Shown: in pieces, positions 6,842 through 50,861 of the stretch
How the letters are laid out: each line of letters starts with the position of its first letter
Numbering within the stretch: position 1 is the stretch's first letter
NCBI GenBank assembly: GCA_903904835.1
Contig: CAIVEI010000174.1
Coordinates: 1-50,861 of the forward strand
DNA: 50,861 nucleotides
Direction: 5' to 3'
Source of the DNA: an uncultured Schlesneria sp.
GTDB taxonomy: Bacteria > Planctomycetota > Planctomycetia > Planctomycetales > Planctomycetaceae
Position numbers and translations under genes: made by a program
Notes under the pieces: model-generated
What the model saw: the letters and a program-made list of their open reading frames with translations, nothing else
Databases searched by the model: none
Told to the model about the DNA's origin: nothing

Positions 6842-6890
6842 GGACAAAGAGTTGTCGCTTGAATCTCAGTGATTATTCGTAAGGAACTCG

Positions 6891-8180: not shown

Positions 8181-8556
8181 TTTTGGGGCTTCCGTTGCTG
8201 TAATTCGTGAGTCTGGTCCGTGCGGTCGCTTCGTCCGGAACCAAGTCCAATACGAGATGCATTCGCATCATTTTGAGGAAATCAGAGGTCGTCCGCGAAG
8301 CGGAATGTAAGACGAGTTTTCCTCCCGCGTCTTTGAATTTCTGATCGCTAACAAGCAGCCATTCGACGCCGGTCGAATCGAGATAATTCGCATTCGCCAG
8401 ACTCAACATCACCTTGCGAGAGAAAACGTCGTCTCCACAAGCGGCGGCAATCGGGTCGCGGTTGTCCATCCATTCATCACGGGACAATCGTCCGTGAAGT
8501 TCCAGAACAACGATGTCCCCTTGGCCTAACAGCATTTGAATCTGGACGGGGTTCAT
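8173..8556 (-). CDS. STAS domain anti-sigma factor antagonist-like protein
   Basis: A 127-residue single STAS domain of the SpoIIAA/RsbV type. The conserved loop NYLDSTGVEWLL places Ser61 where the anti-sigma kinase phosphorylates its antagonist. In such partner switches, unphosphorylated antagonist sequesters the kinase and frees a sigma factor or other target. The upstream gene encodes a receiver plus an RsbW-like HATPase domain, a natural partner. The downstream ATPase gene overlaps by 8 bp. The unusually long C-terminal tail (about residues 105-127) has no visible motif. Confidence 0.87.
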   Translation of the reverse strand: MNPVQIQMLLGQGDIVVLELHGRLSRDEWMDNRDPIAAACGDDVFSRKVMLSLANANYLDSTGVEWLLVSDQKFKDAGGKLVLHSASRTTSDFLKMMRMHLVLDLVPDEATARTRLTNYSNGSPKNA

Positions 8557-8614
8557 CAGTCAGTTCCTCAGGTAAACAATTTCTCAATGGTTTAAGTCTA
8601 GCGTTCGACACAAA

Positions 8615-9601
8615 TTATTCATCAGGATGCGTTGTGGCAGGTTCGGCGGTGTCACCGGAAGGATTTTTCGAACGGCGATGAATCATCGTGATTTCATTTC
8701 CTTGAGCGTTGAAGCGGACTTCGCTCATGAACATCCGAATCAAAAACAGGCCCCGCCCGCAGGGTTTCAAGAGGTTATCGCCTTCGAGCGGATCGACGAC
8801 CGAGCCAGGATCAAAACCCGGTCCTTCGTCACGAATCACATAACACGATTCTTCTGGAGATTCGTCGACAGTGAAGATGACACGACGGCTCTCAAAGGGA
8901 GGTAAATGCTGTCGTCTCGCGGCTTCCTGGTAGTACGAGTCTGAATTCTGACGACGCATTTCGGAACTCAATTCCAGGTTGCCGTGGTGCATTGCATTGC
9001 GAAGGGCCTCTTGCAACGCAACACCGACGCGGATGGATTCGGTTTCATCGTAGGCCTGAATTCCCGAATGGTATTGCTGTAGATGGCTGACGAGTGGTGG
9101 AATAATGGAATTGTCGTTTTCCAGTCGAAATGAAAGACCCAGACGTTCCCAACACCCGAAAATTCGACGCTGCTGCTCGCCGACTCTCGATACCTGGACA
9201 ATCTGGCGAACAATCTCCAGAAGTTCCTTCGAGAGCATCCGCTTGGGAACGTAAGATGCAGCTCCCCGACGTAACGCCCGCAAGGCGATATCTTCACTGC
9301 CATTTGCGGTCATCAGAATTGTCGGAACCGAAGGAAACCGTTTGCGGACGGCTTCGACGAGTTCTAAACCATCCATTTCCGGCATCTGCAGATCGGTAAG
9401 GATCAAATTCGGCTTCAGTTTTTCGACGAGTTCAAGTGCCTCAATCCCATTCTTGGCATAGATGATATTTGAGTGTTCGATCTTCGAAAGCAACTTTCCT
9501 GCGAGCAATGAATCCATCGGTGAATCATCCACAACAAGGAACGTTGGGCTCGCAGAAGAACCCCGTGCTTCCTGGCGATCAGTTGTGGTTTCCATGGCCA
9601 T
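8615..9601 (-). CDS. Response regulator with C-terminal RsbW-like HATPase domain
   Basis: A 328-residue two-domain protein. Residues about 20-140 are a receiver domain with acidic pair VVDD, phospho-acceptor Asp70 in LILTDLQMPEMDG, and the conserved Lys in YVPKRM. Residues about 180-305 are a GHKL ATPase domain of the anti-sigma/serine kinase type: N box EALRNAMHHGNLE, G1 box RDEGPGFDP and G2 box GRGLFLIRMFM. This architecture should tie a histidine-kinase signal to phosphorylation of an STAS antagonist, here probably the next gene, 58 bp downstream. No histidine kinase or sigma factor is encoded nearby, so the upstream input and final output are unknown. The start codon is ATG at 9601, with a second in-frame ATG two codons later. 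Confidence 0.9.
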   Translation of the reverse strand: MAMETTTDRQEARGSSASPTFLVVDDSPMDSLLAGKLLSKIEHSNIIYAKNGIEALELVEKLKPNLILTDLQMPEMDGLELVEAVRKRFPSVPTILMTANGSEDIALRALRRGAASYVPKRMLSKELLEIVRQIVQVSRVGEQQRRIFGCWERLGLSFRLENDNSIIPPLVSHLQQYHSGIQAYDETESIRVGVALQEALRNAMHHGNLELSSEMRRQNSDSYYQEAARRQHLPPFESRRVIFTVDESPEESCYVIRDEGPGFDPGSVVDPLEGDNLLKPCGRGLFLIRMFMSEVRFNAQGNEITMIHRRSKNPSGDTAEPATTHPDE

Positions 9602-19702: not shown

Positions 19703-20803
19703 ATGAGAGCTGCCTCGCTGGTCTGGTGTTTGATGATGTTGGTTCGAGGGATTTCACTCTCTGCTGCCGATCCTGAGACCGAAAATAAACCTCTCCCACC
19801 TCGTTGTGTCGTTTACGCATCCGAAGCCGATACGGAGATTGGATCGTCTTTGTTTCGTGCGCTTTACAGTAATGGCAAGCGAGAGCGATTCGTCAAAGCA
19901 CAGACGATAGAGCAGGCCGTAGAGTCTGGGGCAGATGTTTTGGTCCTCGTACTTCCAACTCGTGATTTGCCGAAGCTTGAAAAGGGGACGCTCGAATCGC
20001 TTAAAAAACACAAGATCGTTGGGATCGGTTATGGTGCGGCACAACTCTTCGGACAACTCGGCTTGGAAATCAACGGCGGAGCCTGTGCACATGGTGTCGT
20101 GGGGCCGCCGAGTTTGACGATCGTCAAGAACGAGTTGCTCGGTGAGCCAAAACATAGGAAGCCCCTGCTGGTACTGCAGGATAGGCCTGTCACAGAACTG
20201 GAAGCAGCCAAACTTGATCTCATCGCCGCTTTTCTGCCGCCACGTGGACCAGAGGCATCCGTTGTTGACGTGATCGCACGTTGGACAAGCGATTGGAACT
20301 ATGCACCCATCGTCCGTCAGGGCAATTGCATTTTGATTGGCATTCCGGCACCAGCAACTCAGTGGACATCCGCCTATTCCGACTTGGTCCGTGAGACATG
20401 CCTGGCCCTCCAGAAACGCAAGATGGAGACTTTCTCCACAGCCCGCTGGGAAGTGACCAAGTCTGGAAACTACGAATTCAACCTGGCTCCACTCGGGAGC
20501 ACCGACATGCCATTTGATAAAACCTATTACTTTCGCTTTTCTGAAGCCAAAGGATTTCGAGCAGAGCTTGAGCACAAGGGTTCAAATTCGATGATGCTTC
20601 TCTTCTCGGGACAGGGTGATGGCCGAGAACACTGGACACGGATGGATGCCCGCCAAGGAGAAACCCTCACGATCAACGCGGAAATTTCAGGTGAGGATAT
20701 CAAGAAACTCGGTGATCGCTATTGGACCTTACAAGTGACCAATTTCGGGGACAACATGCCAGCAGAATGCAAACTGACGATTACAATTGAGGAACCGCAG
20801 TAG
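19703..20803 (+). CDS. Exported 366-aa protein of unknown function, copy 1
   Basis: It has a signal peptide (about residues 1-21, ending SLSAADP), followed by an alpha/beta-like region (about 33-240). That region contains RCVVYASEADTEIG, ADVLVLVLPTRDLP and VGIGYGAAQLFG. The last looks like the nucleophile elbow of a ThuA/class I glutamine-amidotransferase-like fold, with Tyr where Cys would be, so it may be a non-catalytic version. A beta-rich C-terminal domain (about 250-366) contains YYFRFSEAKGFRAELEH and ends ECKLTITIEEPQ. It is 366 residues, the same length as its paralogue at 25544-26644, and most residues match. Start ATG at 19703 follows GAAGGAC. Family not recognised. Confidence 0.8.
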   Translation: MRAASLVWCLMMLVRGISLSAADPETENKPLPPRCVVYASEADTEIGSSLFRALYSNGKRERFVKAQTIEQAVESGADVLVLVLPTRDLPKLEKGTLESLKKHKIVGIGYGAAQLFGQLGLEINGGACAHGVVGPPSLTIVKNELLGEPKHRKPLLVLQDRPVTELEAAKLDLIAAFLPPRGPEASVVDVIARWTSDWNYAPIVRQGNCILIGIPAPATQWTSAYSDLVRETCLALQKRKMETFSTARWEVTKSGNYEFNLAPLGSTDMPFDKTYYFRFSEAKGFRAELEHKGSNSMMLLFSGQGDGREHWTRMDARQGETLTINAEISGEDIKKLGDRYWTLQVTNFGDNMPAECKLTITIEEPQ

Positions 20804-25543: not shown

Positions 25544-26644
25544 ATGAGTGCCGTTGCGCGTGTCGTCTTTTTGCTTTTCATCATTCAAGCCGTTTCACTA
25601 TCGGCCGCCGATCCCGAGGCCGATAGTAAACCGGTGCGCCCTCGATATGTTGTTTATGCATCGGAAGCCGATGGTGAGTTTGGCTCGTCCCTGTTCCGGG
25701 TGCTGTACAGCAAAGGCCAACGTGAGCGATTCGATAAGGCGCAAACGATCGAACAGGCCGTCGAGTCAGATGCAGACGTTTTAGTCCTGATACTTCCGAC
25801 TCGTGAACTTCCGACGCTGGAAGAGGGGACGCTGGAATCGCTCAAAAAACGTAAGATCATCGGGATCGGTTACGGCGCGGCGCAACTCTTCGGAAAACTT
25901 GGCCTGGAGATCAACGGTGGGGCTTGTGCGCATGGTGTACGCGGTTTACCCAGTTTGACGATCGGCAAGAGCGAGTTGCTCGGAGATTCGAAACAAGCGG
26001 AGCCACTGTTGGTACTGCTGGATAGTCCTGTCGCTGAACTGGGCGCTGACAAACTGGACCTCTTCGCTGTTTTTCTACCACCGCGCGGACCAAAGGCATC
26101 CGTTGTCGACGTGATCGCACGTTGGACAAGCGATATGAACTATGGCCCCATCGTCCGCCAGGGCAATTGCATTTTGATTGGCATTCCGGCACCAGCAACA
26201 CAGTGGACGCCCGCCTATGCCGACCTGATCCGTGAAACGTGCCTGGCGCTGCAGAAACGCAAGATGGAGACTTTCTCCGCGGCGCGCTGGGAAGTGACCA
26301 AGCCTGGAACTTATGAATTCAAACTGGCCCCCGGCGGGAGCACCGACCTGCCGTTTGGAAAGACATATTACTTTCAACTCACGGAACCCAAAAAAATCCA
26401 CGCGCAGCTCGAGCATAAGGGTTCAAATTCGGTGATGCTTCTCTTCATGGGGCAGGATGAAGGCCGAAATCACTGGACGCGGGAGGATGCCCGTCAAGGG
26501 GAGACACTCAAGATCACGGCGGAAATTTGCGAAGACGATATCAAAAAACTCGACGATCGCTATTGGGTTTTACAAGTGACAAATTTCGGAGCCAACATGC
26601 CTGCGGACTGCAAATTGACGATTACGATTGAAGATCCGCAGTAA
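25544..26644 (+). CDS. Exported 366-aa protein of unknown function, copy 2
   Basis: Paralogue of the gene at 19703-20803, same length and layout: signal peptide ending SLSAADP, alpha/beta region with GIGYGAAQLFGKLGLEINGG, and a beta-rich C-terminal domain ending CKLTITIEDPQ. Identity is highest around codons 185-250, where long DNA runs are identical (for example CAGGGCAATTGCATTTTGAT in both), and lower near the N-terminus and in the C-terminal domain. The last 23 bases overlap the 3' end of the minus-strand modC gene. Start ATG at 25544. Function unknown. Confidence 0.8.
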   Translation: MSAVARVVFLLFIIQAVSLSAADPEADSKPVRPRYVVYASEADGEFGSSLFRVLYSKGQRERFDKAQTIEQAVESDADVLVLILPTRELPTLEEGTLESLKKRKIIGIGYGAAQLFGKLGLEINGGACAHGVRGLPSLTIGKSELLGDSKQAEPLLVLLDSPVAELGADKLDLFAVFLPPRGPKASVVDVIARWTSDMNYGPIVRQGNCILIGIPAPATQWTPAYADLIRETCLALQKRKMETFSAARWEVTKPGTYEFKLAPGGSTDLPFGKTYYFQLTEPKKIHAQLEHKGSNSVMLLFMGQDEGRNHWTREDARQGETLKITAEICEDDIKKLDDRYWVLQVTNFGANMPADCKLTITIEDPQ

Positions 26645-38888: not shown

Positions 38889-40565
38889 ATGTATTCATTC
38901 CGGCTTTGCTTTGCGCTGGTCTTCAGCCTTTCCTGCGACGCTCAACTGCTACTCGCCGCTGATCCGATTGATCTGGGCGGCGTGACCGAGAAACACGAAA
39001 TGATCCCGATGCGAGACGGAGTGCGTCTGTCTGCCTATATCTACACTCCGCCCGGAACCGGGCCCTGGCCTGTGCTCTTGGAACAACGCTATGCCAACGC
39101 GAACGATCCAGGAACGCAACAATACTTCGCCAGGCTGGCCAAAACGGGTGGATATGTCACCGTACTGGCGAACTTTCGCGGCTCGCAGAAGTCCGAAGGA
39201 GATTGGCGCGGTTACCGATCGCTGGGCTGGGGTGAACGCAAAGATGGTTACGATCTCGTCGAATGGTTGGGGACTCAATCTTGGTCGACGGGCAAAGTCG
39301 GGACGTTCGGCAGTTCGCAAGCGGGATTCGCTCAGAACTTTCTGGCGGTCACGCGCCCTCCGCATCTGACCGCTCAGTACATGATCGATACCGGGCTGAG
39401 CCTGTTTCACGAAGGATACCGAATCGGCGGCACGACTCGTCCTGAACGATTCAAGTCGCTCGATAAAGTGGCCCGAGTTCCACAGCAGAATCGCGAACTG
39501 CTGGCCGAATGGTTGACTCATCCAACCTATGACAGTTACTGGGCCGACGAAGACGGCACTCGGTTCTTTGACCAAATGAACGTCCCCTGCTTTACCGTCG
39601 GAAGCTGGTACGACTTCATGTGTGTCGGCTCCGTCGACAGTTATATCGGACGACAGCATCGTGGCGGTGATAACTCTCGGGGAACACAGCAATTGCTCCT
39701 TGGCCCGTGGCTTCATGGTCGATTTAAAGAGACCAATAAAGCAGGTGAACTCACCTATCCTGAAAACGCCAAGTTCGCGATGGATGCTCATATGATTCGC
39801 TGGTTCGATCACTTTTTGAAAGGGGTTGATAATGGAGTCACCAAAGAGCCAACCATCCGTTACTACGTCATGGGAGCCGTCGACGAGACGGATACTCCTG
39901 GTAACGAATGGCGAACGGCGTCGGACTGGCCAATCCCAATGACTCCGACATCCTATTATCCGCATGTCGACGGAACACTCAGTCAGGCATCACCGCAGTT
40001 GAAGGACGCGCTGGTCACATGGCTGGCCGATCCACTTCATCCTGCATCGATCCCAACAATTGCGTTTCCTGGTGCGAAGGACGCTCGGGATTTTGAAAAA
40101 CAAGCAGAAGCTCGCACTTTTACCAGCGATGTTCTGAAGGAACCGGTTGAATGGACCGGAAAGGTACAGGCGGAATTATTTGTTTCTTCCGACGCCAAAG
40201 ATACAGACTTCTTCGTGCGCGTCAGCGATGTTTACCCGGATGGTCGGTCAATTCTGATCATGGATTATGTTCGCCGAGCCCGTTACCGCGAAGGGTACGA
40301 TCGCGAAGTCTTTCTCAAACCGGGAGAAGTGACGAAAGTGAATTTTGATGTCGGTTGGCTGAGCCAGATTTTCAACAAAGGGCACCGCATCCGAATCACG
40401 GTCGCCAGTACAGGAGCACCTTTCTACGAGCCAAACCCGAACACGGGCGAACCACTCACGCTCGACTTTCCTGCCAATGCCGTCGTTGCCAAAAACAACT
40501 TACATGTTAACACACAACACGCATCGCGCATCATCGCACCAGTCATTTTGAAGACTCTGAAGTGA
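38889..40565 (+). CDS. CocE/NonD family hydrolase (X-Pro dipeptidyl-peptidase S15-like)
   Basis: A 558-residue exported serine hydrolase with a signal peptide to about residue 24 (LLLAADP). The alpha/beta-hydrolase domain begins EMIPMRDGVRLSAYIYTP and has the oxyanion/nucleophile elbow GTFGSSQAGF (Ser143). It is followed by a cap and a C-terminal jelly-roll (about 390-550; SDAKDTDFFVRVSDVYPDGR, GHRIRITVAST) typical of CocE/NonD and PepX. It should hydrolyse an ester or amide, such as an acyl ester or a proline peptide. Start ATG follows AGGA by 8 nt. It is divergent from the cyanophycinase-fusion gene across 229 bp and stands alone. Confidence 0.92.
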   Translation: MYSFRLCFALVFSLSCDAQLLLAADPIDLGGVTEKHEMIPMRDGVRLSAYIYTPPGTGPWPVLLEQRYANANDPGTQQYFARLAKTGGYVTVLANFRGSQKSEGDWRGYRSLGWGERKDGYDLVEWLGTQSWSTGKVGTFGSSQAGFAQNFLAVTRPPHLTAQYMIDTGLSLFHEGYRIGGTTRPERFKSLDKVARVPQQNRELLAEWLTHPTYDSYWADEDGTRFFDQMNVPCFTVGSWYDFMCVGSVDSYIGRQHRGGDNSRGTQQLLLGPWLHGRFKETNKAGELTYPENAKFAMDAHMIRWFDHFLKGVDNGVTKEPTIRYYVMGAVDETDTPGNEWRTASDWPIPMTPTSYYPHVDGTLSQASPQLKDALVTWLADPLHPASIPTIAFPGAKDARDFEKQAEARTFTSDVLKEPVEWTGKVQAELFVSSDAKDTDFFVRVSDVYPDGRSILIMDYVRRARYREGYDREVFLKPGEVTKVNFDVGWLSQIFNKGHRIRITVASTGAPFYEPNPNTGEPLTLDFPANAVVAKNNLHVNTQHASRIIAPVILKTLK

Positions 40566-40752
40566 TCGCCATGCTTCATTCTCCGCAAACCAACCTATTA
40601 GCGTTTTTGAGTTTTGCCATGAATTCTTACTTCCTTGCCATCACAGTGGTCTTAATTCAGTGCGATTTCTTATGATTCCAATGTCTGATCATTATCACCA
40701 TTTAATACGGAACGTTATCCATCGAGAACTTCGAATGCAGGTGAGTAAACAC

Positions 40753-41475
40753 TCAAATATCCTTGCTGCATTCCAACCACGACAGATAGCCTGCTCGAGA
40801 CACCGGTTGCGACATCCAAGATGTATCGGGCAGCGGCAATCGATTCGCCACATCGACGGTGAGCCAACCTTTGGAGAGTGGCATCGTGCTGATGGTTCCC
40901 TTACGGGTTGTCCAGGCAAACGATTTTTTACTTTCGGACTTCACGGCAACCGCTAATGTCGCACTGACGTCCTGCGCAACGTATTTCTTGACGAGGTCAA
41001 ATTGGCCGCTGGCCCACAGTGCGGGGGCCGTGATTCCTTCGACGCCTGCCAGTTTACCTTTTACCCCTAAACCTGAAGCCGCGCTGTTCAACGAGACGGG
41101 AAATCCCTTTTCACAGACCACGTGAAACATCATGTCGACATGGTTTCGAGCCAGCATACGGCACTCATCGATCAGTCCAGACTCCTCGGCTAAAACATCA
41201 AAGTCAAAACTTAGTCCGTTCCATGACAACGGGACAAATCCTTGAGCGGCAGCGTCGGAGAGGTGACGAACAAATGCGGCAACATCGGTTTTCGTCATGT
41301 GTGGTGCCGGAGTTCCAGAATCCATAAGCGAATTCCAGATTCTCGGCTCGACTTCCCCCGTTGCTAGTGATGCAATACACGTAATTCCCAGTGGTCTATG
41401 CGGCTTCCAATGGAAGTCGACCCCAGGAACCTCCTTGGCGGTCTCAATATCAAATACGAGATATTTGCGACTCAT
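40753..41475 (-). CDS. DEDD-family 3'-5' exonuclease-like protein
   Basis: A 240-residue ribonuclease-H-like exonuclease. Exo I is FDIET (Asp9, Glu11), Exo II is SWNGLSFDFDVL and Exo III is KYVAQDVSATL, where the Asp before the last strand is the metal ligand. The layout resembles predicted PolB-associated or stand-alone DnaQ-like exonucleases. It should trim 3' ends of DNA or RNA in the cytoplasm. It is convergent with the hydrolase gene and lies 21 bp after the acetyltransferase gene, with which it may be cotranscribed. Confidence 0.85.
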   Translation of the reverse strand: MSRKYLVFDIETAKEVPGVDFHWKPHRPLGITCIASLATGEVEPRIWNSLMDSGTPAPHMTKTDVAAFVRHLSDAAAQGFVPLSWNGLSFDFDVLAEESGLIDECRMLARNHVDMMFHVVCEKGFPVSLNSAASGLGVKGKLAGVEGITAPALWASGQFDLVKKYVAQDVSATLAVAVKSESKKSFAWTTRKGTISTMPLSKGWLTVDVANRLPLPDTSWMSQPVSRAGYLSWLECSKDI

Positions 41476-41496
41476 TTAGCTTCCGATCTACACTTT

Positions 41497-42066
41497 TTAT
41501 CGATTCTGAAGTGTTTGCCACTGTGAGTGTGTGATCTTATAAAGGCAGTGCGGCCGCAATGGATGACCTTCTGGCACCCCTGGATGCTCGAAATCGGATT
41601 GGCAGTTGATCATACCAATCCGCTGCATGACGGCGATCGACCGCAGGTTGGTCAAAGCGGTGAATGAAACGATCTCGTCCAGGCCCAACTGTTCAAATCC
41701 AAGTCGCAGACAGGCCTTCGCTCCTTCAGTTGCATAGCCCTGTCCCCAGGCCGACCGCTTTAAACGCCAGCCGACTTCCACGCAGGGACTGAATGGTAGC
41801 TGCCGCCTCGGGACTGACAAGCCAATAAATCCAATGAATTCGCCCGTTTCGAGAAGCTCAACTGCCCAGTTACCCCAGCCGCGATCCTGAAAGTGCAGGC
41901 AAGAATTGTCGATACCTGCGTTCGTCTGTTCGGGTGTCATCAGCGCAGGAAAGTACCGCATGACATCCGGGTCTGAATTCATGGCAACGAAACTGGCGCG
42001 ATGTCGGTCTTGCCAGACTCGAAATGCCAGTCGCTGCGTGTTGAATTCGATCGGCTGAACTGCCAC
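41497..42066 (-). CDS. GNAT family N-acetyltransferase (RimJ/RimL-like)
   Basis: About 189 residues of a GCN5-related acetyltransferase. It opens FNTQRLAFRVWQDRH, the ETERLxLR-like start of the RimJ/RimL branch. The acetyl-CoA pyrophosphate loop is AWGQGYATEGAKACL, and VSFTALTNLRSIAVMQRIGM is the motif B region. The substrate could be a small molecule or a protein N-terminus. The start is uncertain: a TTG at 42108 is possible, but GTG at 42066 is preferred because it gives the usual N-terminal length and follows a weak GAGAG. It sits 21 bp upstream of the exonuclease gene on the same strand. Confidence 0.85.
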   Translation of the reverse strand: MAVQPIEFNTQRLAFRVWQDRHRASFVAMNSDPDVMRYFPALMTPEQTNAGIDNSCLHFQDRGWGNWAVELLETGEFIGFIGLSVPRRQLPFSPCVEVGWRLKRSAWGQGYATEGAKACLRLGFEQLGLDEIVSFTALTNLRSIAVMQRIGMINCQSDFEHPGVPEGHPLRPHCLYKITHSQWQTLQNR

Positions 42067-42489
42067 GGATGGGTCTCTCGGGATTCCGGTTTTGAAAGGC
42101 TCGAACAAGTTAGCCAGATCGTCGCCGGCCCAAATGCTCGTTGGATTGTGTTCGGATGCGTTTTAAGGAGTCAACAGGCCGATTCAAGGCAAATGAACGA
42201 AGGCTCATTTCATCCCTTCATGAGCAAACTTGATGATCGATTCACGTTTCCTGTTTCGCAATCCGCGCAAACATCGAATCAGTACAGTAGTGTTTGCCAG
42301 TGCATTCATGCATATCGCCGATTAGGCCGCACAATAATACGAAGCGACTCTGTTAATTTCCGGTGAAGCTCATTGTTCGCTCAGTTCATGCCACCAAAAT
42401 GTTCGTTTGTGACGCTTGGCGCGACGCATTCGGTGCTGTACGTTGCCTGTGCTTTTTCATGCCCCCGCAAAAGTTAACGGATTTTCACC
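42067..42489. other. 423-bp divergent region
   Basis: Between the acetyltransferase (minus) and the haem lipoprotein (plus). No coding pattern, hairpin or promoter was convincing. It must hold the promoter of the haem-protein island; the first gene has no obvious Shine-Dalgarno (CGGATTTTCACC precedes the ATG). Confidence 0.5.
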
Positions 42490-45400
42490 ATGAAATGCTA
42501 TCAGCTAGCTCTCTTTCTCGTAGCGGTTTGGGCGGTTGGATGCGGAAAACCGCAGGTCCCAAAAACAGATCTGCCTGCAAATAAACTCCCTGAGAAGGTT
42601 TCTGCACCTGTTGCCGACGGACAACAGGAGGTTGCCACCGTGCACGTCGACCAAACGGTGCCGCCAAGCATTAATCGGAAGCCAGGTTTCGATGCCCATG
42701 CGTTTCAGTACCTTGATCAAGGGAGTGGCTTCTTTCCCTTCGATGTGGTGAAAGCCCTGATCGACAGCGAAACGAATCGGCCATATCTGGAGAATCTGGA
42801 ACGGTTCGGGCTGCTGCCTGGTGAAAAATCAGAAAGCAATCCCAATGGCTTTCCCGTTGGGATTGTTTTGAACAAGGTCGGTGAAAAGCCAATTGAAATG
42901 TTCGGCTTTACATGCGCCGCTTGCCATACTTCGGACATACGCTTTGAGGGAAAGATCGTTCGAATCGAAGGTGGATCAGGGCTGTTCTATGTCGATGCCC
43001 TGGGAGATGCGATCGCCAACTCTCTGCAGAAGACGTTGAAAGATAAGAAAGAATTGGCGGCATTTCTCAAGCGATTGTTGCAAGAACTCGTAAAGCGCGA
43101 CGGGAAATCATTGCATGGACTTGAGGATTTTCACCGAATCATTGATGACGGTACCTTCGGCAAGGCGTTGATCGAGCACATTGAAGAACGGTTCGCGTCG
43201 GTTCTTACTGACATTAAACCAAAGGCTGACAAATCGGTGCTGGCGGGTATTGCAGCAAAGCTACATCAATTAACACATCGGGCTGACAGTTCACTGAAAA
43301 GTCTGGCCGACGACCATCGGCTCGGTGCAATCACCGACATTTTATCCCGGCTGGAAGAATGCCGCGAGCTGATTGAATATCGACTCAATTTCCTCAAGAT
43401 GAGAGCATGGCTGGCGAAGCCGGGAAACCGTCTGACTGCTGGTTATGGCCGAGCCGACGACTTCGGGACGGCTCGAGTCGAATTGTTCGGACAACTTGAT
43501 GAAACACAGGGAACACCCGAGCATCGAAACATGGAACCGGTCACCGCGCCAGTGAGCGTTCCTCCTCTATGGAATATTGAACAGTTTGCCTGGTTGCATT
43601 GGAACTCGAACACAAACTCCGTTATCCAACGCAGCATTGGTGAATCAATCGGTGTCGGAGCAACGTTCACAAAGGAAAATGTCACCTCTGTCAACATTGC
43701 CAATCAAATGAAAATTGAGCAGCAGATCCCTCACGTTGCTGCACCAGAATGGCCTGAAGACGTTTTAGGAAAAATCGATCCTGCCAAGCGAGAACGAGGC
43801 TGGGCGATCTACAAGGAAAAATGTGCGGAATGTCACAATCCGTCGGAGCGAGACAAAGAAAAAGGACTCTTGGAGTTTCGACACTTCACTCTCGAAGAAG
43901 CCGGTACAGATCCTTCCGATGCCGAGAATTTTGCCAAACCTGTCTTTCTGCCCGATGGCACACAAACAGGATTTGCAACGGCAATCGGAGGTCTGCTTGA
44001 AAAATTGCAGGCGACCGCCAAGTCGACGATGTCCCCTGAAAATCAGCGTTTGATGGAAGAACTTGAACAGCCTCGCCGCCCCGTCAAATGGCGAGATCCG
44101 ATGCACGAAAACGGCGGTAAGGTTTATCCCGCGAAACCACTGGACGGCATTTGGGCGACCGCGCCTTACTTGCATAACGGGTCCGTTCCAACTCTCTATC
44201 ACTTGTTGTTGCCGGCGAAAGATCGGCCAACGGAATTTGTCGTCGGTCCGCAGGACTTCTTGCCAAAAGAAGTCGGTTTCGAGTGGGATCCAAAAAACTT
44301 TCCCACGCTCACCGACAAGCATAATCCGCAAAAGAAACTGACCACGATCCGCACCCAGGATCGGGGTAATTCTAACTCGGGTCACGAACATGGCAAGGAT
44401 TTATCTGATGCTGACCGTTGGGCATTGATCGAATACCTGAAAGTCCACCGAACTCCGTCCCTTTCCGGCGATGCTGCAACATCCAAGAGCGATAAAAAAA
44501 AAGGTTCAAACCCGTGGGCTGAGACTCAGGCTGCAATCGAAAAAACGCACACGGAATATCTTCGAACAAACGCCGAAGGGTACGACTGGTTCGCCAACGC
44601 GTCCGATGGATTTGCAGGTGTCCCCGTAATCCTGCTTCGTTCGTTTCCGGACCTCGCTCCCGAGATTTGGGGCCAACCTGAAGAAAAGTTTTCCCGCTTC
44701 GGTTTGATTCCGAGTCCAACCGAGCCTGATCGTCCCTTACCGCTCGGTTTAAGTTGGGATTCGATGGTTGAGGGGCATTCAACCGGTCCATTCAAGGGGG
44801 CTGCATTGACCTGCGGTGCTTGTCATATTGGACGAGTTCGCATTCCTGAAGGAGATGCCGTTAATTATCGAGCATTAGTCGGAGCGCCCAACACGCAATT
44901 TGATGTGAGGCGCTGGCGGCATGCCTTTGAACAAACCGTCAGCAAGTACTTGAATACACCAGAGAATGTTGCGAAGACCGCCGTCCGACTTCGTGAAATC
45001 GTTGCCTCCAAGCCAGCCAATTACTACTACGGTCAATATCGAGGTCTCGATGCCAATGTCGAGATCAAAGAACGAGGCCTGCTGGCGGCCACCGACCCCA
45101 AGGACGTTGCCGCAGAAATTCTTGCGGGGTTTGCCATGCAGATTTCTCTCAGCAAACTGGCGGTCGACAAACAAAAGGCGACCAGCTATTCCAAAGAGAA
45201 TGCACCCCCTCTCGACGGCGGAAGTCCCGGGCAATCGGATGGAAGCGGCGATTTGATCCCGCGTCTGTGTTTGCTGGACACGGTAGCCTCGATTGGCCCC
45301 GGTGAGACACTGCAAAAATTCGCTGAGATGTCGTTCCCGGCACTCCCGATAAAAAAGGCGACGGTGACCGACATCGTCAGTACGTTTAAACAAGGGGCTC

Positions 45401-46269
45401 GAAATATCGCCCAGATCGATGGCAGCGTGAAATCTCCATTTTATCGGAATGTCGCAGCGAGCCTCGCCGTCGCTGGTGATCCCAGGCAAGTCAACGTCGC
45501 TAACGCGGACATTACTGCCGGGTTTATTCATGCGTTGCCTGCTCCTGCTTACCCGTTTGACGTCGACATGTCCCGAGTAGAACGTGGTCATAAGCTTTAC
45601 AAAGAGAACTGTGGTATGTGTCACCGGGACCACAATGATATCGTTTATAAGGCCGAAAACACGACGTTTGCAGAACAGATCGGAACCGATCCGAATCGCT
45701 CGCAAGTCCTCAACGCCGACGCCTTGCAACTGTTCTTGAGGCATTTCGTGGCAAGCGTCCCCGAGACATATGAAACGAAGGACGCAAATGGAAAGACTTA
45801 CCGTCCCCATGACCTCCATCCCGATGAGATCGTGTTTGATCGGTCTGAGTTAGCGAATCAGGGATACGTGACCAATGCCCTGGAAGGTGCATGGTCTCGT
45901 GCTCCCTATCTCCACAACGGGTCGGTCCCAACGCTTTACCACCTTCTGGTTCCAAGCGAGAGACCGTCGACGTTTGCTCGCGGTTCAATCAGCTACGACC
46001 AGAAGCATGTCGGTTGGCAGTGGAATATTGAAAAGATCGATCAGTTGAAGGAAGTTGATCCCACAGTCTCGGTCTTCAATACAGCTTGGGACAGTTCTTC
46101 GAATCGGGGACACGATAAAAATCTGACGGTCGATCATGACGGAAAGATCCTTCGGATGGATTGGAGCGGAGCCGAGACGCCTGAAGAACACAAAGTCCGA
46201 CTCGATTGGAGCGGTCCTGAAAATGCAGAGGCCCTTTTTGATTTAATTGAGTATTTGAAGACGCTTTGA
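42490..46269 (+). CDS. Lipoprotein with two fused di-haem cytochrome c peroxidase-like modules
   Basis: A 1259-residue exported protein with lipobox AVWAVGC (Cys18). Four c-type haem sites are CAACH (142-146), CAECH (445-449), CGACH (775-779) and CGMCH (1041-1045). The two halves resemble each other. RFGLLPG and RFGLIPS precede haems 1 and 3; RGWAIYKEKCAECH and RGHKLYKENCGMCH surround haems 2 and 4; APYLHNGSVPTLYHLL follows in both. Each half resembles a di-haem cytochrome c peroxidase/MauG-type oxidoreductase, with electron entry and active haem. The fused dimer is unusual. It probably sits on the outer face of a membrane and reduces peroxide or oxidises a partner. Two catalase-superfamily genes follow on the same strand. 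Confidence 0.88.
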   Translation: MKCYQLALFLVAVWAVGCGKPQVPKTDLPANKLPEKVSAPVADGQQEVATVHVDQTVPPSINRKPGFDAHAFQYLDQGSGFFPFDVVKALIDSETNRPYLENLERFGLLPGEKSESNPNGFPVGIVLNKVGEKPIEMFGFTCAACHTSDIRFEGKIVRIEGGSGLFYVDALGDAIANSLQKTLKDKKELAAFLKRLLQELVKRDGKSLHGLEDFHRIIDDGTFGKALIEHIEERFASVLTDIKPKADKSVLAGIAAKLHQLTHRADSSLKSLADDHRLGAITDILSRLEECRELIEYRLNFLKMRAWLAKPGNRLTAGYGRADDFGTARVELFGQLDETQGTPEHRNMEPVTAPVSVPPLWNIEQFAWLHWNSNTNSVIQRSIGESIGVGATFTKENVTSVNIANQMKIEQQIPHVAAPEWPEDVLGKIDPAKRERGWAIYKEKCAECHNPSERDKEKGLLEFRHFTLEEAGTDPSDAENFAKPVFLPDGTQTGFATAIGGLLEKLQATAKSTMSPENQRLMEELEQPRRPVKWRDPMHENGGKVYPAKPLDGIWATAPYLHNGSVPTLYHLLLPAKDRPTEFVVGPQDFLPKEVGFEWDPKNFPTLTDKHNPQKKLTTIRTQDRGNSNSGHEHGKDLSDADRWALIEYLKVHRTPSLSGDAATSKSDKKKGSNPWAETQAAIEKTHTEYLRTNAEGYDWFANASDGFAGVPVILLRSFPDLAPEIWGQPEEKFSRFGLIPSPTEPDRPLPLGLSWDSMVEGHSTGPFKGAALTCGACHIGRVRIPEGDAVNYRALVGAPNTQFDVRRWRHAFEQTVSKYLNTPENVAKTAVRLREIVASKPANYYYGQYRGLDANVEIKERGLLAATDPKDVAAEILAGFAMQISLSKLAVDKQKATSYSKENAPPLDGGSPGQSDGSGDLIPRLCLLDTVASIGPGETLQKFAEMSFPALPIKKATVTDIVSTFKQGARNIAQIDGSVKSPFYRNVAASLAVAGDPRQVNVANADITAGFIHALPAPAYPFDVDMSRVERGHKLYKENCGMCHRDHNDIVYKAENTTFAEQIGTDPNRSQVLNADALQLFLRHFVASVPETYETKDANGKTYRPHDLHPDEIVFDRSELANQGYVTNALEGAWSRAPYLHNGSVPTLYHLLVPSERPSTFARGSISYDQKHVGWQWNIEKIDQLKEVDPTVSVFNTAWDSSSNRGHDKNLTVDHDGKILRMDWSGAETPEEHKVRLDWSGPENAEALFDLIEYLKTL

Positions 46270-46317
46270 ACTGCCGGTATTCGAATGAGCCAATCGTAAC
46301 CAAAGGGAGAGACTTTC

Positions 46318-47361
46318 ATGTCACGAACTGAGTCCGAGTTGCAAGCGGGATTGGACGACGACTTCAAAAAGGTTGCCGAGTCGCTTCGAGCCATTTTCGT
46401 CGGTGCTGCCACCAGATTTCATGGACGAGCAACACATACCTACGGTGCAGGTGCGCGAGGAGAGGCCAGGATCTGCGTTCCGATTGGATTTCCCCAGAAC
46501 GACTTCTTTGTACCGGGAAAGACGTTTCCAGTCATCTTGCGCCATTCATCACCTGGCGGCCAGGAAGATGATCGTACTCGCGATGGTTCGGCAGCCTCCA
46601 TCAAGTTCTATGAAACGACTGCCGATCCCACGCAACTCGGCTTTCACGACATCATGATGAATACCGGGCGAGCACTGTTCGTGCGGACGGCGCGAGCATT
46701 TCATACGATGGTCACCACCCCCAACCCGGAACGGATTGAGAAACTGCTGAAGCCGGGAATTCTGATCGACAGCATTCTTTCCGAAGGTTATCGAAACGGA
46801 GGTTCGTTTACAGACTTCTATTATCATTCGCAAATCTGCTACGAATTCACCGACTTAAGCGGGACGATGCACTATCTCCGCTATCGGTTGATCAACGGTG
46901 ACCGCGGCCCGGAACGAGGTCACTATCCTCAAAGCTGGAAACCGAACGGAATCACCTGGTATCCAAAGCTGGACGATGACTTTCGCGCGCACGACTTTAA
47001 GCGACAGGACTTTCTCCAGCGAGTGACACATGGGGGGCTGAACTATCTGTTGCAGGTCCAGTTACGGCCCTCGGATGATCCCGAAGCGGTGAATTGTACG
47101 GGCATTTGGGATCAACAACGGTTCCCCTGGTTGGACGTAGCGGAATTGCATCTGAACCAGGTTTTGACTGCGGATGAGCTCGACGTTTTGGAACTCGACG
47201 CGAATCGCACACATCCTTGTGTCGCTTTGCCACTCGCGACGACCGGACTTTGGAGCGGGCTGCAAGCCGATAATCACGCCTCGTTGGGACATGCTCGAGC
47301 ACTGGTCTACTGGGCCGCACGAAAGGCACGCGCCGATGCACCCAAACCGCATGTCAATTGA
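46318..47361 (+). CDS. Catalase-superfamily haem protein 1 (allene-oxide-synthase-like)
   Basis: A 347-residue protein with the reduced catalase-like fold. HTYGAGARG (His40) aligns with the distal His of catalases (HAKGxGAxG). RHSSPGGQEDDRTRDGSAAS corresponds to the RFSxxxxxxxxxDxRG segment, and RALVYWAARKAR (Tyr331) to the proximal RxxxY haem ligand. Members of this small-catalase branch include coral-type allene oxide synthases and SrpA-like peroxidases, so the substrate could be peroxide or a fatty-acid hydroperoxide. There is no signal peptide. Start ATG follows GGGAG by 8 nt. It is 48 bp downstream of the di-haem lipoprotein and probably cotranscribed. Confidence 0.75.
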   Translation: MSRTESELQAGLDDDFKKVAESLRAIFVGAATRFHGRATHTYGAGARGEARICVPIGFPQNDFFVPGKTFPVILRHSSPGGQEDDRTRDGSAASIKFYETTADPTQLGFHDIMMNTGRALFVRTARAFHTMVTTPNPERIEKLLKPGILIDSILSEGYRNGGSFTDFYYHSQICYEFTDLSGTMHYLRYRLINGDRGPERGHYPQSWKPNGITWYPKLDDDFRAHDFKRQDFLQRVTHGGLNYLLQVQLRPSDDPEAVNCTGIWDQQRFPWLDVAELHLNQVLTADELDVLELDANRTHPCVALPLATTGLWSGLQADNHASLGHARALVYWAARKARADAPKPHVN

Positions 47362-47438
47362 TGGCAACTCGAAGTCACGAATCGATTCCTGTCTAAGTCG
47401 CGTTTTCTCATTAACGTACTCTTCTTTCGAGTGATACG

Positions 47439-48449
47439 ATGTCGACTGATGGAACTGACCTGGCCAACGGCGGACTTCAAATCGGTAAGGAATACCCTCC
47501 TGCCGGTGAAGCTGATGCCATTAAAAACCTGCGAGAATTGCATCTCAAGGTTCACGGTGTGACCCCGGGCACCAAACTGCGCGGCGAACACCCCAAGCAG
47601 CATGGGGGTGTCTGGGCAACATTTCAAATCGCTTCTGACATTCCTGCTCCTTACAAAGTCGGCCTGTTCCAAAAGGCTGGTACTTATCGAGCGTTCATCC
47701 GATTCTCAAACGGTCGTTCGTTTGATGACCGTGACCCCGACGTTCGAGGGATGGCGATTAAGGTCTTCACCTCCCGATCCGAAGATGAATCACCTGTGAA
47801 TCAAGATTTCATTCTTGCCAGCCATCCCGTATTTTTCGCTCAAAATGTACAGCACATTCTTGATTTCCTCATTGCCACTTCGACCGGAACACCCGCTGCA
47901 AAACTGGCGATGACCACTTTTCCCAAGTTAATTGGCTTCACCTCGCTGGCGACAAAAAGCCCTTTGCAGATGTCCTATTGGAGCCAAACCCCCTACCAGC
48001 TCGGTACCGGAGCCGTCAAATATTTTGCTCATCCCGCACTTGAGCAACCCCAGCCTCAGCCGGATCTTGTCTTGTCGAATTCCGAGAACTCACTTCGAGA
48101 AGCGATGGTCGAACAATTGACCAGACGAAAGATCGGAGTGACCTTCGACTTCGGGATCAATCCACAAACCGATGCCAACACAATGCCCGTGGAAGATCCA
48201 ACAGTCGAATGGATGTCTGCTCCCGTACGCCTGGCAACCATCTCGATTTATCCTCAACGTTTCGATTCGCAAGAACAGATGCAGTTTGTGGAAAACACAG
48301 CCTGGTCACCGTGGAATTTCTTGCCAGAACATCGACCCTTGGGCGGGATCAACCGTGCCCGCCAATGGGTATATTCCGATAGCCAGGACATGCGTCATCA
48401 AGCGAACGGAGTGACTCCTGCAATCCCGACAGGTCGGGAAAGTTTCTAA
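47439..48449 (+). CDS. Catalase-superfamily haem protein 2 (SrpA-like)
   Basis: A 336-residue small catalase-like protein. RGEHPKQHGGVWATFQI provides the distal His (His51). AFIRFSNGRSFDDRDPDVRG with MAIKVF is the typical substrate-channel segment, and RARQWVYSDSQDMR carries the proximal Tyr312. Catalase-related peroxidases of this type use organic hydroperoxides. It lacks a signal peptide. The gene lies 77 bp after haem protein 1, same strand. The two share fold and key residues but little sequence, so they are distant relatives with separate jobs. Start ATG at 47439. Confidence 0.87.
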   Translation: MSTDGTDLANGGLQIGKEYPPAGEADAIKNLRELHLKVHGVTPGTKLRGEHPKQHGGVWATFQIASDIPAPYKVGLFQKAGTYRAFIRFSNGRSFDDRDPDVRGMAIKVFTSRSEDESPVNQDFILASHPVFFAQNVQHILDFLIATSTGTPAAKLAMTTFPKLIGFTSLATKSPLQMSYWSQTPYQLGTGAVKYFAHPALEQPQPQPDLVLSNSENSLREAMVEQLTRRKIGVTFDFGINPQTDANTMPVEDPTVEWMSAPVRLATISIYPQRFDSQEQMQFVENTAWSPWNFLPEHRPLGGINRARQWVYSDSQDMRHQANGVTPAIPTGRESF

Positions 48450-48695: not shown

Positions 48696-49760
48696 CTAGT
48701 AGTGAATGATTTCCAGGTCTGGCCGATTCCGCTTGTGTTTCGTAATTTCGTCGTCAGATATTTTCGTTCCAGTGATGTAGAGCGTTCTCAGGTGCTGGAA
48801 TCCGACAAGCTTCTCAAGGCCGGTGTCGGTGATTTGAGTCAGCCGGATGCTTAGTGTTGTCAAGTTCTTCAATTCCGCCAGATGAGTGATGCTAGTGTCC
48901 GTCACCTGACAATCACCAATGCTGAATTTCGCCAGGTTTGTCAGGCCCACCAGTTCTGACAGGCCCCTATCTGAAATATTGTTACCTTGTAATGCCAGCC
49001 ACTTGAGGTTTTTGAGATCTTTCAAATGCACGAGGCCGGCATCGGTGATCTGCGAATAGTTTACCAGCAGCGTTTCCAGGTTCGTCAGTTTGCTTAACTC
49101 CTTCAGGTCTTCGATCGACAGTCCAACAAAACCAAGATTCAGCGACTTCAGTTGCTTCAGTTCACCTAACCCGATCAGGCCACCCTCCGAAAGCCGGGTA
49201 TCCTGAAGATCAAGATCAGTCAGATATCTGAGTTCCCGCAATTCCTTGAGGCCTGCCCCACTGACTCTGACGTCTTGCAGGCGTAGACGTTTCAGGTTTT
49301 TCATTTCCTTCAAATAAGCGACACCCACATTGGTGATTCGTGTGGTGCTCATATCAAGCGACGTCAGGTTCTTGAGGTCACACAACCCTCGGACTCCTGA
49401 ATCGGTAATCGACGTGTGATTCAGATTCAGTGATGTGAGACCAGTCAGTTGTTTCCAGGAGGTAACGCCGGCGTCGGTAAACTTGGCTCCGTCTTCAACA
49501 CTGCGAAAGCGACATTCCACTGCCGTCAAGTGTTTGAAAGAGTTCAGAACGTGGATGTACTTATCGGTGAATCGGCAATTATCATTAAACCAGACACGGA
49601 CAACCGGCTGTTCCGGTAATGTCTCGTCACGCTCTACAGATGCACCGAGCAGCGCCAGTTTTGTAATGGTCCGGAATTCGTCGACTTCGTCCTGGGCATA
49701 CGCAACATGGCAAAGGAATCCCCCGGCCATGCTGAGAATCACGAAAAACTTGAGGACCAT
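48696..49760 (-). CDS. Exported leucine-rich-repeat protein (small)
   Basis: A 354-residue protein with a signal peptide (VILSMAGGFLCHVAYAQ) and about ten LRRs of 24 residues (GLKELRELRYLTDLDLQDTR-LSE). The N-terminal cap (KLALLGASVERDETLP..RFTDKYIHVLNSFKHLT) parallels that of the LRR protein at 22909-24585 (IELLGGNVTKDGALP..RFNDKYVHLLTGFKSLK), so they share ancestry. It is expected in the periplasm or outside the cell as a binding scaffold. It converges on the catalase-like gene. Start ATG at 49760 follows a weak GGTAGAAAG. Confidence 0.87.
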   Translation of the reverse strand: MVLKFFVILSMAGGFLCHVAYAQDEVDEFRTITKLALLGASVERDETLPEQPVVRVWFNDNCRFTDKYIHVLNSFKHLTAVECRFRSVEDGAKFTDAGVTSWKQLTGLTSLNLNHTSITDSGVRGLCDLKNLTSLDMSTTRITNVGVAYLKEMKNLKRLRLQDVRVSGAGLKELRELRYLTDLDLQDTRLSEGGLIGLGELKQLKSLNLGFVGLSIEDLKELSKLTNLETLLVNYSQITDAGLVHLKDLKNLKWLALQGNNISDRGLSELVGLTNLAKFSIGDCQVTDTSITHLAELKNLTTLSIRLTQITDTGLEKLVGFQHLRTLYITGTKISDDEITKHKRNRPDLEIIHY

Positions 49761-49954
49761 TTCGACTTTCTACCGGAGACGTTTACCCGTTTCGACAATG
49801 TTGTCATTGACCACTGTAGATCGATTGACATCCTAGGATCGAGCGAACTGGTGACGCAACTCCAACGCGGCTGGCTAACTCGACCGACTTTGAGCAAGCT
49901 TGCATCCAGGTCAAAACCGGCCTGCATTAACGACGAAATGAAATCAAGATTTTT

Positions 49955-49990
49955 AACCACGAAACAGACGAAACACACGAAATAAGAATC
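49955..49990. repeat. ACGAAAC-iterated intergenic repeat
   Basis: AACCACGAAACAGACGAAAC followed by ACACGAAATAAGAATC contains three near-copies of a 9-10-nt unit ending in ACGAAA. On the other strand it reads TTTCGTGTGTTTCGTCTG. Similar iterations are familiar in intergenic DNA of planctomycetes and other environmental bacteria. Traces occur at 17503 and 17616. Confidence 0.55.
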
Positions 49991-50013
49991 AGGAGTAATC
50001 AAAAACAATTTGA

Positions 50014-50109
50014 ATTTCCGGCAATTGAAGTCATCTCCGTGACCTCCGCGCCTCCGTGGTGAAATCCGTTCTGCTTGAATTATTTCAAAAAAACTTTGAG
50101 CAACTATGG
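50014..50109. repeat. 96-bp intergenic repeat, copy A
   Basis: Runs from ATTTCCGGCAATTGAAG through CCTCCGTGGTGAAATCCG to GAGCAACTATGG. The reverse strand reads as iterated CACGGAGG/CGCGGAGG units. It matches copy B at 50399-50493 over its full length with scattered differences and one length difference. Confidence 0.75.
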
Positions 50110-50197
50110 ACATTGACCGAGCTTTTTGCCAATTCCAAAATCTGATTTCCGAAATCTGATATTTGAAATCTGATTTCTGTTTTCCAAGATCTGAAAC

Positions 50198-50232
50198 TTT
50201 GCGCAACTATGGCCCCATTTGAGCAACTATGG
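50198..50232. repeat. Paired CAACTATGG motifs
   Basis: TTTGCGCAACTATGG (50198-50212) and TTTGAGCAACTATGG (50218-50232), 20 bp apart. The same pair recurs at 50479-50493 and 50500-50513, and inverted at 371-440. Confidence 0.65.
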
Positions 50233-50398
50233 CTGCCCCCCTGTCGTGCGCGTGTCTCCCGACCCCGCCCTCTTGGCCGACCAACGGTCTCCCACCCATT
50301 TTGCCGACCCTCATTTCTTACCTTCCTTCCCTTCGTTCCCTTCTGTTCAAAATCTTCCCGTATTTTTCGTGTTTTCGTGATCCGCCTTCGTCTTCCGC

Positions 50399-50493
50399 AT
50401 TTCCAGCAATTGAAGTCTTCTCCGTGACCTCCGTGCCTCCGTGGTGAAATCCGTTCTTCTCGACTTATCTCAAAAAGCGTTGCGCAACTATGG
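50399..50493. repeat. 95-bp intergenic repeat, copy B
   Basis: Direct repeat of copy A at 50014-50109, ending GCGCAACTATGG. A further GAGCAACTATGG follows at 50502-50513, right beside the 3' end of the partial gene at 50508. Confidence 0.75.
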
Positions 50494-50507
50494 CGAAACT
50501 TGAGCAA

Positions 50508-50861
50508 CTATGGGTTCTGCCCACTCGTGACTTCCCCCTCCGATCGGTTTTCCGTTTCGACCTCTTCAGGTTTTGGGTCCAGTTCACTCGGTAGATACCA
50601 GTACCACTTTCCCTGGAATGAATCATGGGCGGACCGGAGATCCAGCGCGTCATACGCCCGACGTAACGTCGCTTTCGAGATGTTGTGGGCATCCCCGTCC
50701 ACCAGAAGTTGTGCCTTTGAGAGAGGTCCATGCTCTGATAAGACTCCCTGCAGCCAGGCAACCGCCTTCGCAAGCTTCGATCGCGCTTCGCGTGCCACCC
50801 GCTTCTGGTCCTGGACATATTCCTCACACTTCGTGAGATACTCGTCCCCCGTGACAGTCGA
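50508..50861 (-). CDS. 3' end of a gene with a C-terminal winged-helix-like domain (partial)
   Basis: The minus-strand frame is open from the window edge (50861) to the stop at 50508, so only the last 117 codons are visible. The upstream part is a charged helix (CEEYVQDQKRVAREARSKLA). Next comes AVAWLQGVLSEHGPLSKAQL, then ISKATLRRAYDALDLRS and GKWYWYLP, which together look like a winged helix. This tail resembles the C-termini of RepA/DnaB-like AAA ATPases and primase-helicases in planctomycetes (TLRRAxxxLGVxxxKxGFxGxWxWxLP pattern). A GTG at 50798 is internal, not the true start. The identity of the missing N-terminal part is inferred. Confidence 0.65.
   Translation of the reverse strand, partial: STVTGDEYLTKCEEYVQDQKRVAREARSKLAKAVAWLQGVLSEHGPLSKAQLLVDGDAHNISKATLRRAYDALDLRSAHDSFQGKWYWYLPSELDPKPEEVETENRSEGEVTSGQNP

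Follow-up and report, generated by a model that had tools for sequence, protein, structure and literature searches.

Positions 42490 to 48449 of contig CAIVEI010000174.1 (assembly GCA_903904835.1), from an uncultured Schlesneria sp. of the phylum Planctomycetota, hold three genes for haem proteins on the plus strand, and we propose that this locus is probably a recurring, partly fused lipid-hydroperoxide module. The window, by which we mean the whole stretch analysed (50,861 nucleotides), is one contig of an 8.18-Mb genome. The three genes encode a tetra-haem protein in a single open reading frame (ORF1), a catalase-related protein of the coral allene oxide synthase (AOS) type (P2) and a small catalase-family protein (P3). 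Judging from homology, conserved residues and gene neighbourhood, our preferred reading, to which we assign a probability of roughly 0.5, is that the locus would act as a module of the oxylipin type, making lipid hydroperoxides and converting them. Oxylipins in prokaryotes have been described as having largely unidentified roles (abstract of PMC5155153). The features of the locus are:

42490..46269, plus strand: ORF1, tetra-haem protein of 1259 aa, fused N-type and C-type RoxA-like di-haem units
42610..44463, plus strand: N-type di-haem half, about residues 41-658 (NF040606 score, tree)
42913..42927, plus strand: haem c site 1, CAACH, residue 142
43822..43836, plus strand: haem c site 2, CAECH, residue 445
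44161..44208, plus strand: APYLHNGSVPTLYHLL of the N half, residue 558, containing the PYxHNGSVP motif of RoxA, FadCcp and MauG
44557..46266, plus strand: C-type di-haem half, residues 690-1259 (tree, profile)
44812..44826, plus strand: haem c site 3, CGACH, residue 775
45610..45624, plus strand: haem c site 4, CGMCH, residue 1041
45901..45948, plus strand: APYLHNGSVPTLYHLL of the C half, residue 1138
46318..47361, plus strand: P2, 347 aa, catalase-related, coral AOS type (match to 1u5u)
46426..46440, plus strand: RATHT, P2 residues 37-41, aligned with coral AOS R64-A-T66-H67-T68
47296..47310, plus strand: RALVY, P2 residues 327-331, with proximal Tyr331 aligned with coral AOS Y353
47439..48449, plus strand: P3, small catalase-family protein, 336 aa (Pfam Catalase, family profile)
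47589..47603, plus strand: HPKQH, P3 residues 51-55, distal His and second His, both invariant in the 8-row alignment A6
48360..48374, plus strand: RQWVY, P3 residues 308-312, with proximal Tyr312

An initial annotation of this DNA had described four CXXCH sites in one polypeptide, arranged as two homologous halves with APYLHNGSVPTLYHLL after the second haem of each, and that description holds in full. Each half has two CXXCH sites and one of the two PYLHNGSVP copies of ORF1, the make-up of a di-haem unit of the RoxA-like/NF040606 branch. ORF1 scores 499.3 bits against NF040606 (cut-off 150), the N half alone 374.7 bits and the C half alone 132.6 bits, below that cut-off; against PF21419 (RoxA-like_Cyt-c) ORF1 scores 122.7 bits in two stretches (cut-off 26.7), and in the genome search each half separately matches this family above its cut-off. 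By far the best solved-structure match of ORF1 is RoxA (4b2n). The same annotation had assigned the halves to the di-haem CCP/MauG proteins; di-haem they are, but of the RoxA-like/NF040606 branch, and among the 10 Pfam families listed for ORF1 at E up to 1 there is no match to CCP_MauG, which we take to be the model for classical CCP/MauG. We therefore dropped a classical CCP/MauG identity for the halves.

The halves had also been called duplicated, which fits only as ancient paralogy. They are homologous, but their identity is 26% (146 of 564 aligned columns, E 1e-24) and they fall in separate clades of a di-haem tree of 26 rows, for which reasons we reject a recent tandem duplication of one half and read ORF1 as a fusion of two old paralogues. 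The N half groups with its nearest relative, a stand-alone 672-aa protein of genome G257 (100/100), and the C half with proteins of genome G413, Sinorhizobium fredii NGR234 and Paracoccus yeei (100/100); a profile search adds genomes G663 and G630 as further C-half relatives. Strict orthology between the N half and the N-type di-haems of NGR234 and G413 is likewise rejected, as those lie in a different clade (96/90). Two further species of the genus have the tetra-haem fusion intact (1257 aa in G295 and 1320 aa in G294), with halves 85-90% identical to those of the window, and because both sister species carry the whole fused ORF with the same flank, an assembly error is unlikely. That flank, which is not thought to be part of the module, is:

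38889..42108, both strands: CocE/NonD hydrolase (plus), exonuclease-like gene (minus) and GNAT gene (minus), syntenic in the two sister species

ORF1 begins with MKCYQLALFLVAVWAVGCGKPQ and carries a lipoprotein-like box, MKCYQLALFLVAVWAVGC-G (AVGC here, versus TVGC in G295); this lipoprotein signal was called by inspecting the N-terminus by eye, without a predictor.

P2 follows ORF1 after 48 bp and P3 follows P2 after 77 bp, so the two catalase-superfamily genes lie within 125 bp in total, as first annotated, and both proteins exceed the Pfam Catalase cut-off of 25 bits (32.2 for P2, 31.6 for P3). The statement that both keep the distal His and the proximal RxxxY Tyr is also correct (H40 and R327-Y331 in P2, H51 and R308-Y312 in P3). 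The best PDB match of P2 is coral AOS (1u5u; phmmer E 2.2e-34 over residues 20-333), and true catalases match it at E 3e-5 or weaker. In the printed alignment R37, T39, H40, R75, N115 and Y331 of P2 correspond to coral R64, T66, H67, R102, N137 and Y353, residues with described roles in the coral haem pocket (PMC5617202); R327 corresponds to coral R349, and coral R360 lies outside the alignment. When each protein served alone as the query against 294 genomes of the phylum, P2 matched 2 of them, ORF1 5 and P3 9, each count including the genome from which the window comes. At the syntenic place (window 46270-47438) the two sister species have no AOS-like gene, so P2 was either gained in the window's species or lost in its sisters.

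P3 belongs to a family whose 8-row alignment keeps H51, K53, H55, R308 and Y312; the P3-type protein of G295 lacks the second His of HPKQH. In monofunctional catalases a catalytic Asn is paired with the distal His, and at this position P3 has Ala or Ser, according to the alignment used, which sets it apart from that class. As a lone query P3 matches catalases at 1e-4 or weaker. With the family profile the best PDB match is 3e4w (E 4e-14), which is listed as a putative uncharacterized protein and which we take to be a mycobacterial catalase-related protein with peroxidase activity. The window's genome has three places with P3-family genes.

Evidence that these genes belong together comes from their recurrence. 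A C-type di-haem profile matched 20 of 397 genomes; 14 were excluded for covering only about 190-260 of 603 positions, as were 40 plasmid records with partial matches, and the remaining 6 together with NGR234 and P. yeei (four near-identical records counted as one) give eight C-type loci, the window included. The profile itself contains rows from the window, G413, NGR234 and P. yeei, whose matches are therefore by construction. A P3-type catalase is present at seven of the eight loci, an N-type di-haem, fused or adjacent, at six, an AOS-like gene at three and a cyclooxygenase (COX) homologue at two; both COX-bearing loci are those where no N-type di-haem was seen (for P. yeei, from the annotation). 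The pairing of catalase with C-type di-haem spans the window's phylum and the Alphaproteobacteria. Taking the three P3-family places of the window's genome, the chance of such a gene within 10 kb is about 0.007 per locus, and finding one in 5 of 6 lineages by chance (the genus counted once) has a probability of about 1e-10, an estimate that is rough since the window itself prompted the search. These genes are thus neighbours in other genomes too, and the possibility that they never meet elsewhere falls away.

The individual loci vary on this theme. On plasmid pNGR234a of S. fredii the order is C-type di-haem, catalase, AOS-like, N-type di-haem and, by annotation, patatin; the C-type di-haem and AOS-like frames are interrupted there (L061, 11821-15840), and six other Sinorhizobium plasmid records gave partial AOS-like matches only. 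In G413 the order is C-type di-haem, AOS-like (49% identical to P2), a single 1729-aa ORF that is catalase-like and then patatin-like, and N-type di-haem. The start of that ORF is 37% identical to the NGR234 catalase (BLAST, E 1e-63) and does not match Pfam Catalase at E 0.01; the part after it matches Patatin at 32.1 bits. G663 has N-type di-haem, catalase and C-type di-haem in that order. On a P. yeei plasmid the C-type di-haem and catalase are accompanied by a protein homologous to COX-2 (E 3.7e-61), in which YRWH replaces the YHWH of COX-2, and in G630 a COX homologue stands beside the C-type di-haem, with no catalase match in the 20 kb around it. On a Methylobacterium currus plasmid, a COX homologue adjoins a P3-type catalase. 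Finally, an IMG/VR contig (L115, IMGVR_UViG_3300048599_000557, 5554-8721), phage or prophage with portal, capsid and tail genes around the locus, encodes a 1055-aa ORF in which an N-type di-haem precedes a region of the P3-type catalase kind; this region is 41% identical to the NGR234 catalase (BLAST E 1.5e-61) and does not match Pfam Catalase at E 0.001. This single ORF suggests that such a di-haem/catalase pair can share a compartment elsewhere. Scans of viral contigs gave six loci with A4 and none with A5, A2 or A6, and a contig scan with A1 (two poor patterns) gave one locus, matching contig C636 of genome G191 in length and position.

The AOS-like genes fall into clades with different company. 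They occur at 16 places in 15 of the 397 genomes of the class, as well as in G191 and NGR234. Each of the three in the P2 clade (window, G413, NGR234) has C-type di-haem and catalase genes for neighbours. Flanks of the remaining AOS-like genes were examined at 14 places (13 of the class plus G191, with G614 left out); there is no di-haem match in these flanks, and seven have a flanking lipoxygenase (G593 twice, G368, G662, G669, G588 and G191). Genome-wide, a lipoxygenase is found in 13 of the 14 genomes with an other-type AOS-like gene, the exception being G614, which is 68% complete. G413, 99% complete, has an AOS-like gene and no lipoxygenase match in its genome; this one genome suggests that di-haem proteins can replace lipoxygenase as the source of hydroperoxide. 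The proximal Tyr is kept in P2, in its relatives of G413 and NGR234 and in the G191 protein. Six aligned other-clade proteins (G390, G346, G393, G593, G588 and G645) have no Tyr in the proximal column, although that of G390 has one a position later, and all six have Ser for the Thr preceding the distal His. Elsewhere in the window's own genome, contig C74 (L057, 1106-7932, minus strand) carries, one after another, genes for an alpha-dioxygenase homologue (E 5e-115 to the plant fatty-acid enzyme 4kvj), a patatin that just passes the cut-off (27.9 bits against 27.7), a lipase of class 3 and a protein of the catalase family.

Three further observations concern the AOS-like genes. Several of another clade than P2 adjoin genes for giant Ser/Thr kinase-AAA-TPR proteins (L075-L078, L149, L150 and L153-L155; four by Pfam, five by BLAST). 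In L079 (7628-10285), L149 (9532-12015) and L151 (8675-11290) the AOS-like domain ends proteins of about 830-885 aa with an uncharacterised N-terminal part and a lipoxygenase gene adjacent. In G645 the AOS-like gene has, some 2 kb away, a patatin (L150, 12584-14905) that is cNMP-binding and resembles neuropathy target esterase.

What might such a module do? We propose that in the exported ORF1 one half would oxygenate an unsaturated lipid with O2, in the manner of RoxA and the Pseudomonas enzyme 10S-DOX, and that the other half would handle the product or electrons, as the diol synthase does downstream of 10S-DOX. P2 would take lipid hydroperoxides and rearrange or cleave them at its haem, and P3 would reduce or otherwise convert leftover peroxide. 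Here we infer the lipid substrate, the order of the steps, the division between the halves and the passage of lipid products to the signal-less P2 and P3, which may take place by diffusion or transport. A bolder version, tentative and in our view on the doubtful side, is a lipoxygenase-independent, all-haem bacterial oxylipin pathway, in which the fused di-haems would be a dioxygenase and its hydroperoxide-handling partner, replacing lipoxygenase for a coral-type AOS, with a COX homologue swapped in at related loci and patatin supplying the fatty acid; this would be a c-type-haem counterpart of fungal dioxygenase-isomerase fusions.

Known systems lend this scheme its precedents. RoxA cleaves rubber with O2, which is held at the N-terminal haem; Phe317 is essential and Trp302 lies between the haems, and RoxB is an oxygenase as well, whereas RoxC has no rubber-cleaving activity (PMC4496055, PMC10837239). 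The same sources report that 10S-DOX (PA2077) of Pseudomonas aeruginosa oxygenates oleate and loses activity when either haem His is mutated, that PA2078 (7,10-DS) converts the hydroperoxide to a diol, seemingly with no involvement of its haems, and that the Phe317 equivalent is kept in both. The PYxHNGSVP motif is common to RoxA, FadCcp and MauG (PMC4496055). Like ORF1, the FadCcp proteins PA2077 and PA2078 are a paralogous, exported, di-haem RoxA-like pair with two CXXCH sites each, PYxHNGSVP and, judging by the alignment, a Trp302 equivalent in one member (PA2077 there, the N half here). Unlike ORF1 they are separate proteins, their haem sites are 245 and 235 residues apart versus 303 and 266 in ORF1, they keep the Phe317 equivalent that ORF1 has apparently lost (a comparison by description), and the excerpt of PMC4496055 mentions no catalase-superfamily partner, whereas ORF1 has P2 and P3 downstream. 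Because of the RoxA-like branch, the pairing and the neighbours, ORF1 could by analogy be a pair of this kind in one chain. RoxA, RoxB and RoxC share with ORF1 PF21419, two haems per unit and the conserved motif, and differ from it in their NCBIfam scores, in lacking the tetra-haem fusion and in their neighbours. With the coral AOS-lipoxygenase fusion (1u5u, 3dy5) P2 shares its haem-pocket residues, in an alignment covering residues 20-333 of its 347, and it differs in the points set out below. For P3 the closest solved relative, 3e4w, is remote, and P3-type genes often lie beside di-haem genes. Fungal linoleate diol synthase, a dioxygenase-P450 fusion, is a conceptual parallel, with two consecutive lipid-oxidation enzymes in one chain; its families are unrelated, and both halves of ORF1 are c-type di-haem units. 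Among the literature matches listed, no title or abstract describes this gene set, and the excerpt of PMC11719350 makes no mention of catalase-related, diheme or 10S-DOX proteins.

A number of points weigh against the oxylipin reading. Some concern P2: coral position 150 is Phe in P2 (F128), as in coral lyase, not the Leu150 of AOS, and coral K107 is replaced by G80, for which reasons we call P2 AOS-type without fixing its product, a lyase or another hydroperoxide outcome being equally open. No lipoxygenase is fused or adjacent to P2; the sole match to PF00305 in the genome lies on a different contig, and G294 and G295 likewise have lipoxygenase on other contigs. In these two sister species the tetra-haem gene is followed by P3 (75-76%) with no P2 between, and their genomes give no AOS-like match at E 1e-12, so the AOS step is dispensable. 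Others concern ORF1. AlphaFold models of the halves, with six rows each, had mean predicted local distance difference test scores of 40.6 and 40.0, and RoxA residues were therefore compared by sequence alignment alone. The Phe317 position in both halves is then Ala, Val, Ile or Leu, never Phe, in a region of ambiguous alignment. The Trp302 position is Trp in the N half and Ile in the C half; among C-type relatives it is Trp in P. yeei, NGR234, G663 and G630 and Leu in G413, and it varies within the FadCcp family as well, being Trp or Ser (PMC4496055).

The company that the genes keep also tells in part against it. Patatin occurs at only two of the eight C-type loci, that of NGR234 scores 26.0 bits, below the Pfam cut-off of 27.7, and the patatin-like part in G413 has no GxSxG. 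N-type di-haems often stand alone, and P3-type relatives turn up with no reference match for lipid enzymes nearby: 0 of 7 catalases of family f25 and 0 of 8 distant plasmid copies have a di-haem, COX, lipoxygenase, patatin or lipase match. A last difficulty is location. ORF1 must be exported because of its haem c attachment, but P2 and P3 look cytoplasmic, with no signal peptide by eye and only 6 and 8 in-frame codons upstream. The activities of all members are moreover predicted ones.

On balance the observations of the initial annotation are confirmed and its interpretation is partly supported. It had proposed a surface pathway for peroxide or lipid hydroperoxides; a hydroperoxide pathway is the best reading, given the type of P2, the recurrence and the phospholipase and COX neighbours, but a surface location of the catalase-like proteins is not supported. 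Its further suggestion, that the tetra-haem protein exchanges electrons with those enzymes, is unsupported, as P2 and P3 have no export signals by eye.

The most serious rival, though an unlikely one, is plain peroxide defence, in which ORF1 would be a periplasmic tetra-haem reductase of H2O2 or alkyl peroxides fed by the respiratory chain, with P2 and P3 as cytoplasmic backup peroxidases. It agrees with the peroxidase activity that we assume for 3e4w, the nearest solved relative of P3, with the P3-like catalases found away from lipid enzymes and with sister species that manage without P2, and the di-haem/catalase ORF of the phage contig is compatible with it too. NCBI names NF040606 a di-heme-cytochrome C peroxidase, but that name is homology-based, and in the branch itself three members (RoxA, RoxB and 10S-DOX) act as oxygenases, and a lipid hydroperoxide is the substrate of PA2078. 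P2, moreover, is AOS-like rather than catalase-like, and COX, patatin, alpha-dioxygenase and lipoxygenase homologues adjoin relatives of these genes.

Much less probable is that ORF1 works as RoxA does and cleaves an external polymer or isoprenoid that is unsaturated, the oxidised fragments being dealt with by the catalase-like proteins. Both halves do match 4b2n and the models of RoxA, RoxB and RoxC, and an N-terminus like that of a lipoprotein points to an outer location; the matches are weak, however (46-59 bits per half and 93-99 for ORF1), the NCBIfam cut-offs of 900-1000 bits being reached neither by ORF1 nor by either half, RoxA Phe317 is apparently not kept and what recurs nearby are homologues of fatty-acid oxygenases and phospholipases. 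Even more improbable is maturation of the MauG or MbnH kind, in which the di-haems would oxidise a partner, such as the catalase-like proteins, to make a cofactor or cross-link: the motif shared with MauG and the N-type di-haem joined to a catalase partner in L115 would suit it, but the lack of visible export signals makes contact with P2 or P3 doubtful, and the NCBIfam MbnH model matches ORF1 at just 14 bits. That the three genes are chance neighbours without shared function is scarcely credible because the gene set recurs, with the P3-type catalase at nearly every C-type locus in two phyla, even if P2 is missing between the other two genes in both sister species.

If the oxylipin reading is right, the NF040606 family would gain a substrate class and be linked to coral-type AOS, bacterial COX homologues and phospholipases, and it would seem that a haem enzyme of a very different type can stand in for lipoxygenase ahead of the same sort of hydroperoxide converter. 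If peroxide defence is right instead, the fusion and the recurrence would still define a new multi-part detoxification unit.

Relatives of the module genes also occur in other settings. Beside the P3-type catalases of two Nostoc plasmids (0 of 2), of contig C139 in G257 and of contig C88 in the window's own genome, none of the di-haem, COX, lipoxygenase, patatin and lipase references found a match; these negatives, with those from f25 and the distant plasmids, led us to reject the idea that a P3-type catalase always marks a lipid locus. In four of the six f25 loci with a scanned flanking ORF, a radical-SAM gene is present. N-type di-haems with no adjacent catalase match were found in Ruegeria, Methylobacterium, Bradyrhizobium, R. 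etli, Ensifer and Geminocystis, and in G164 (two), G216 and G257 (near the contig end). The one in Bradyrhizobium is near an oleate hydratase and that of R. etli near a patatin. In R. etli, Geminocystis and G295, genes for trypsin-like peptidases are found close to di-haem genes, a few kb away at most (L081, L085 and L145). Elsewhere the window encodes prepilin-like proteins and, by eye, two closely similar 366-aa proteins without assigned function (19703-20803 and 25544-26644, plus strand). Near its end (49739-50827), short overlapping ORFs with repeated stretches resembling RRHGGHGEDFNC and THSCSxxAIVAQ suggest, also by eye, a dispersed repeat.

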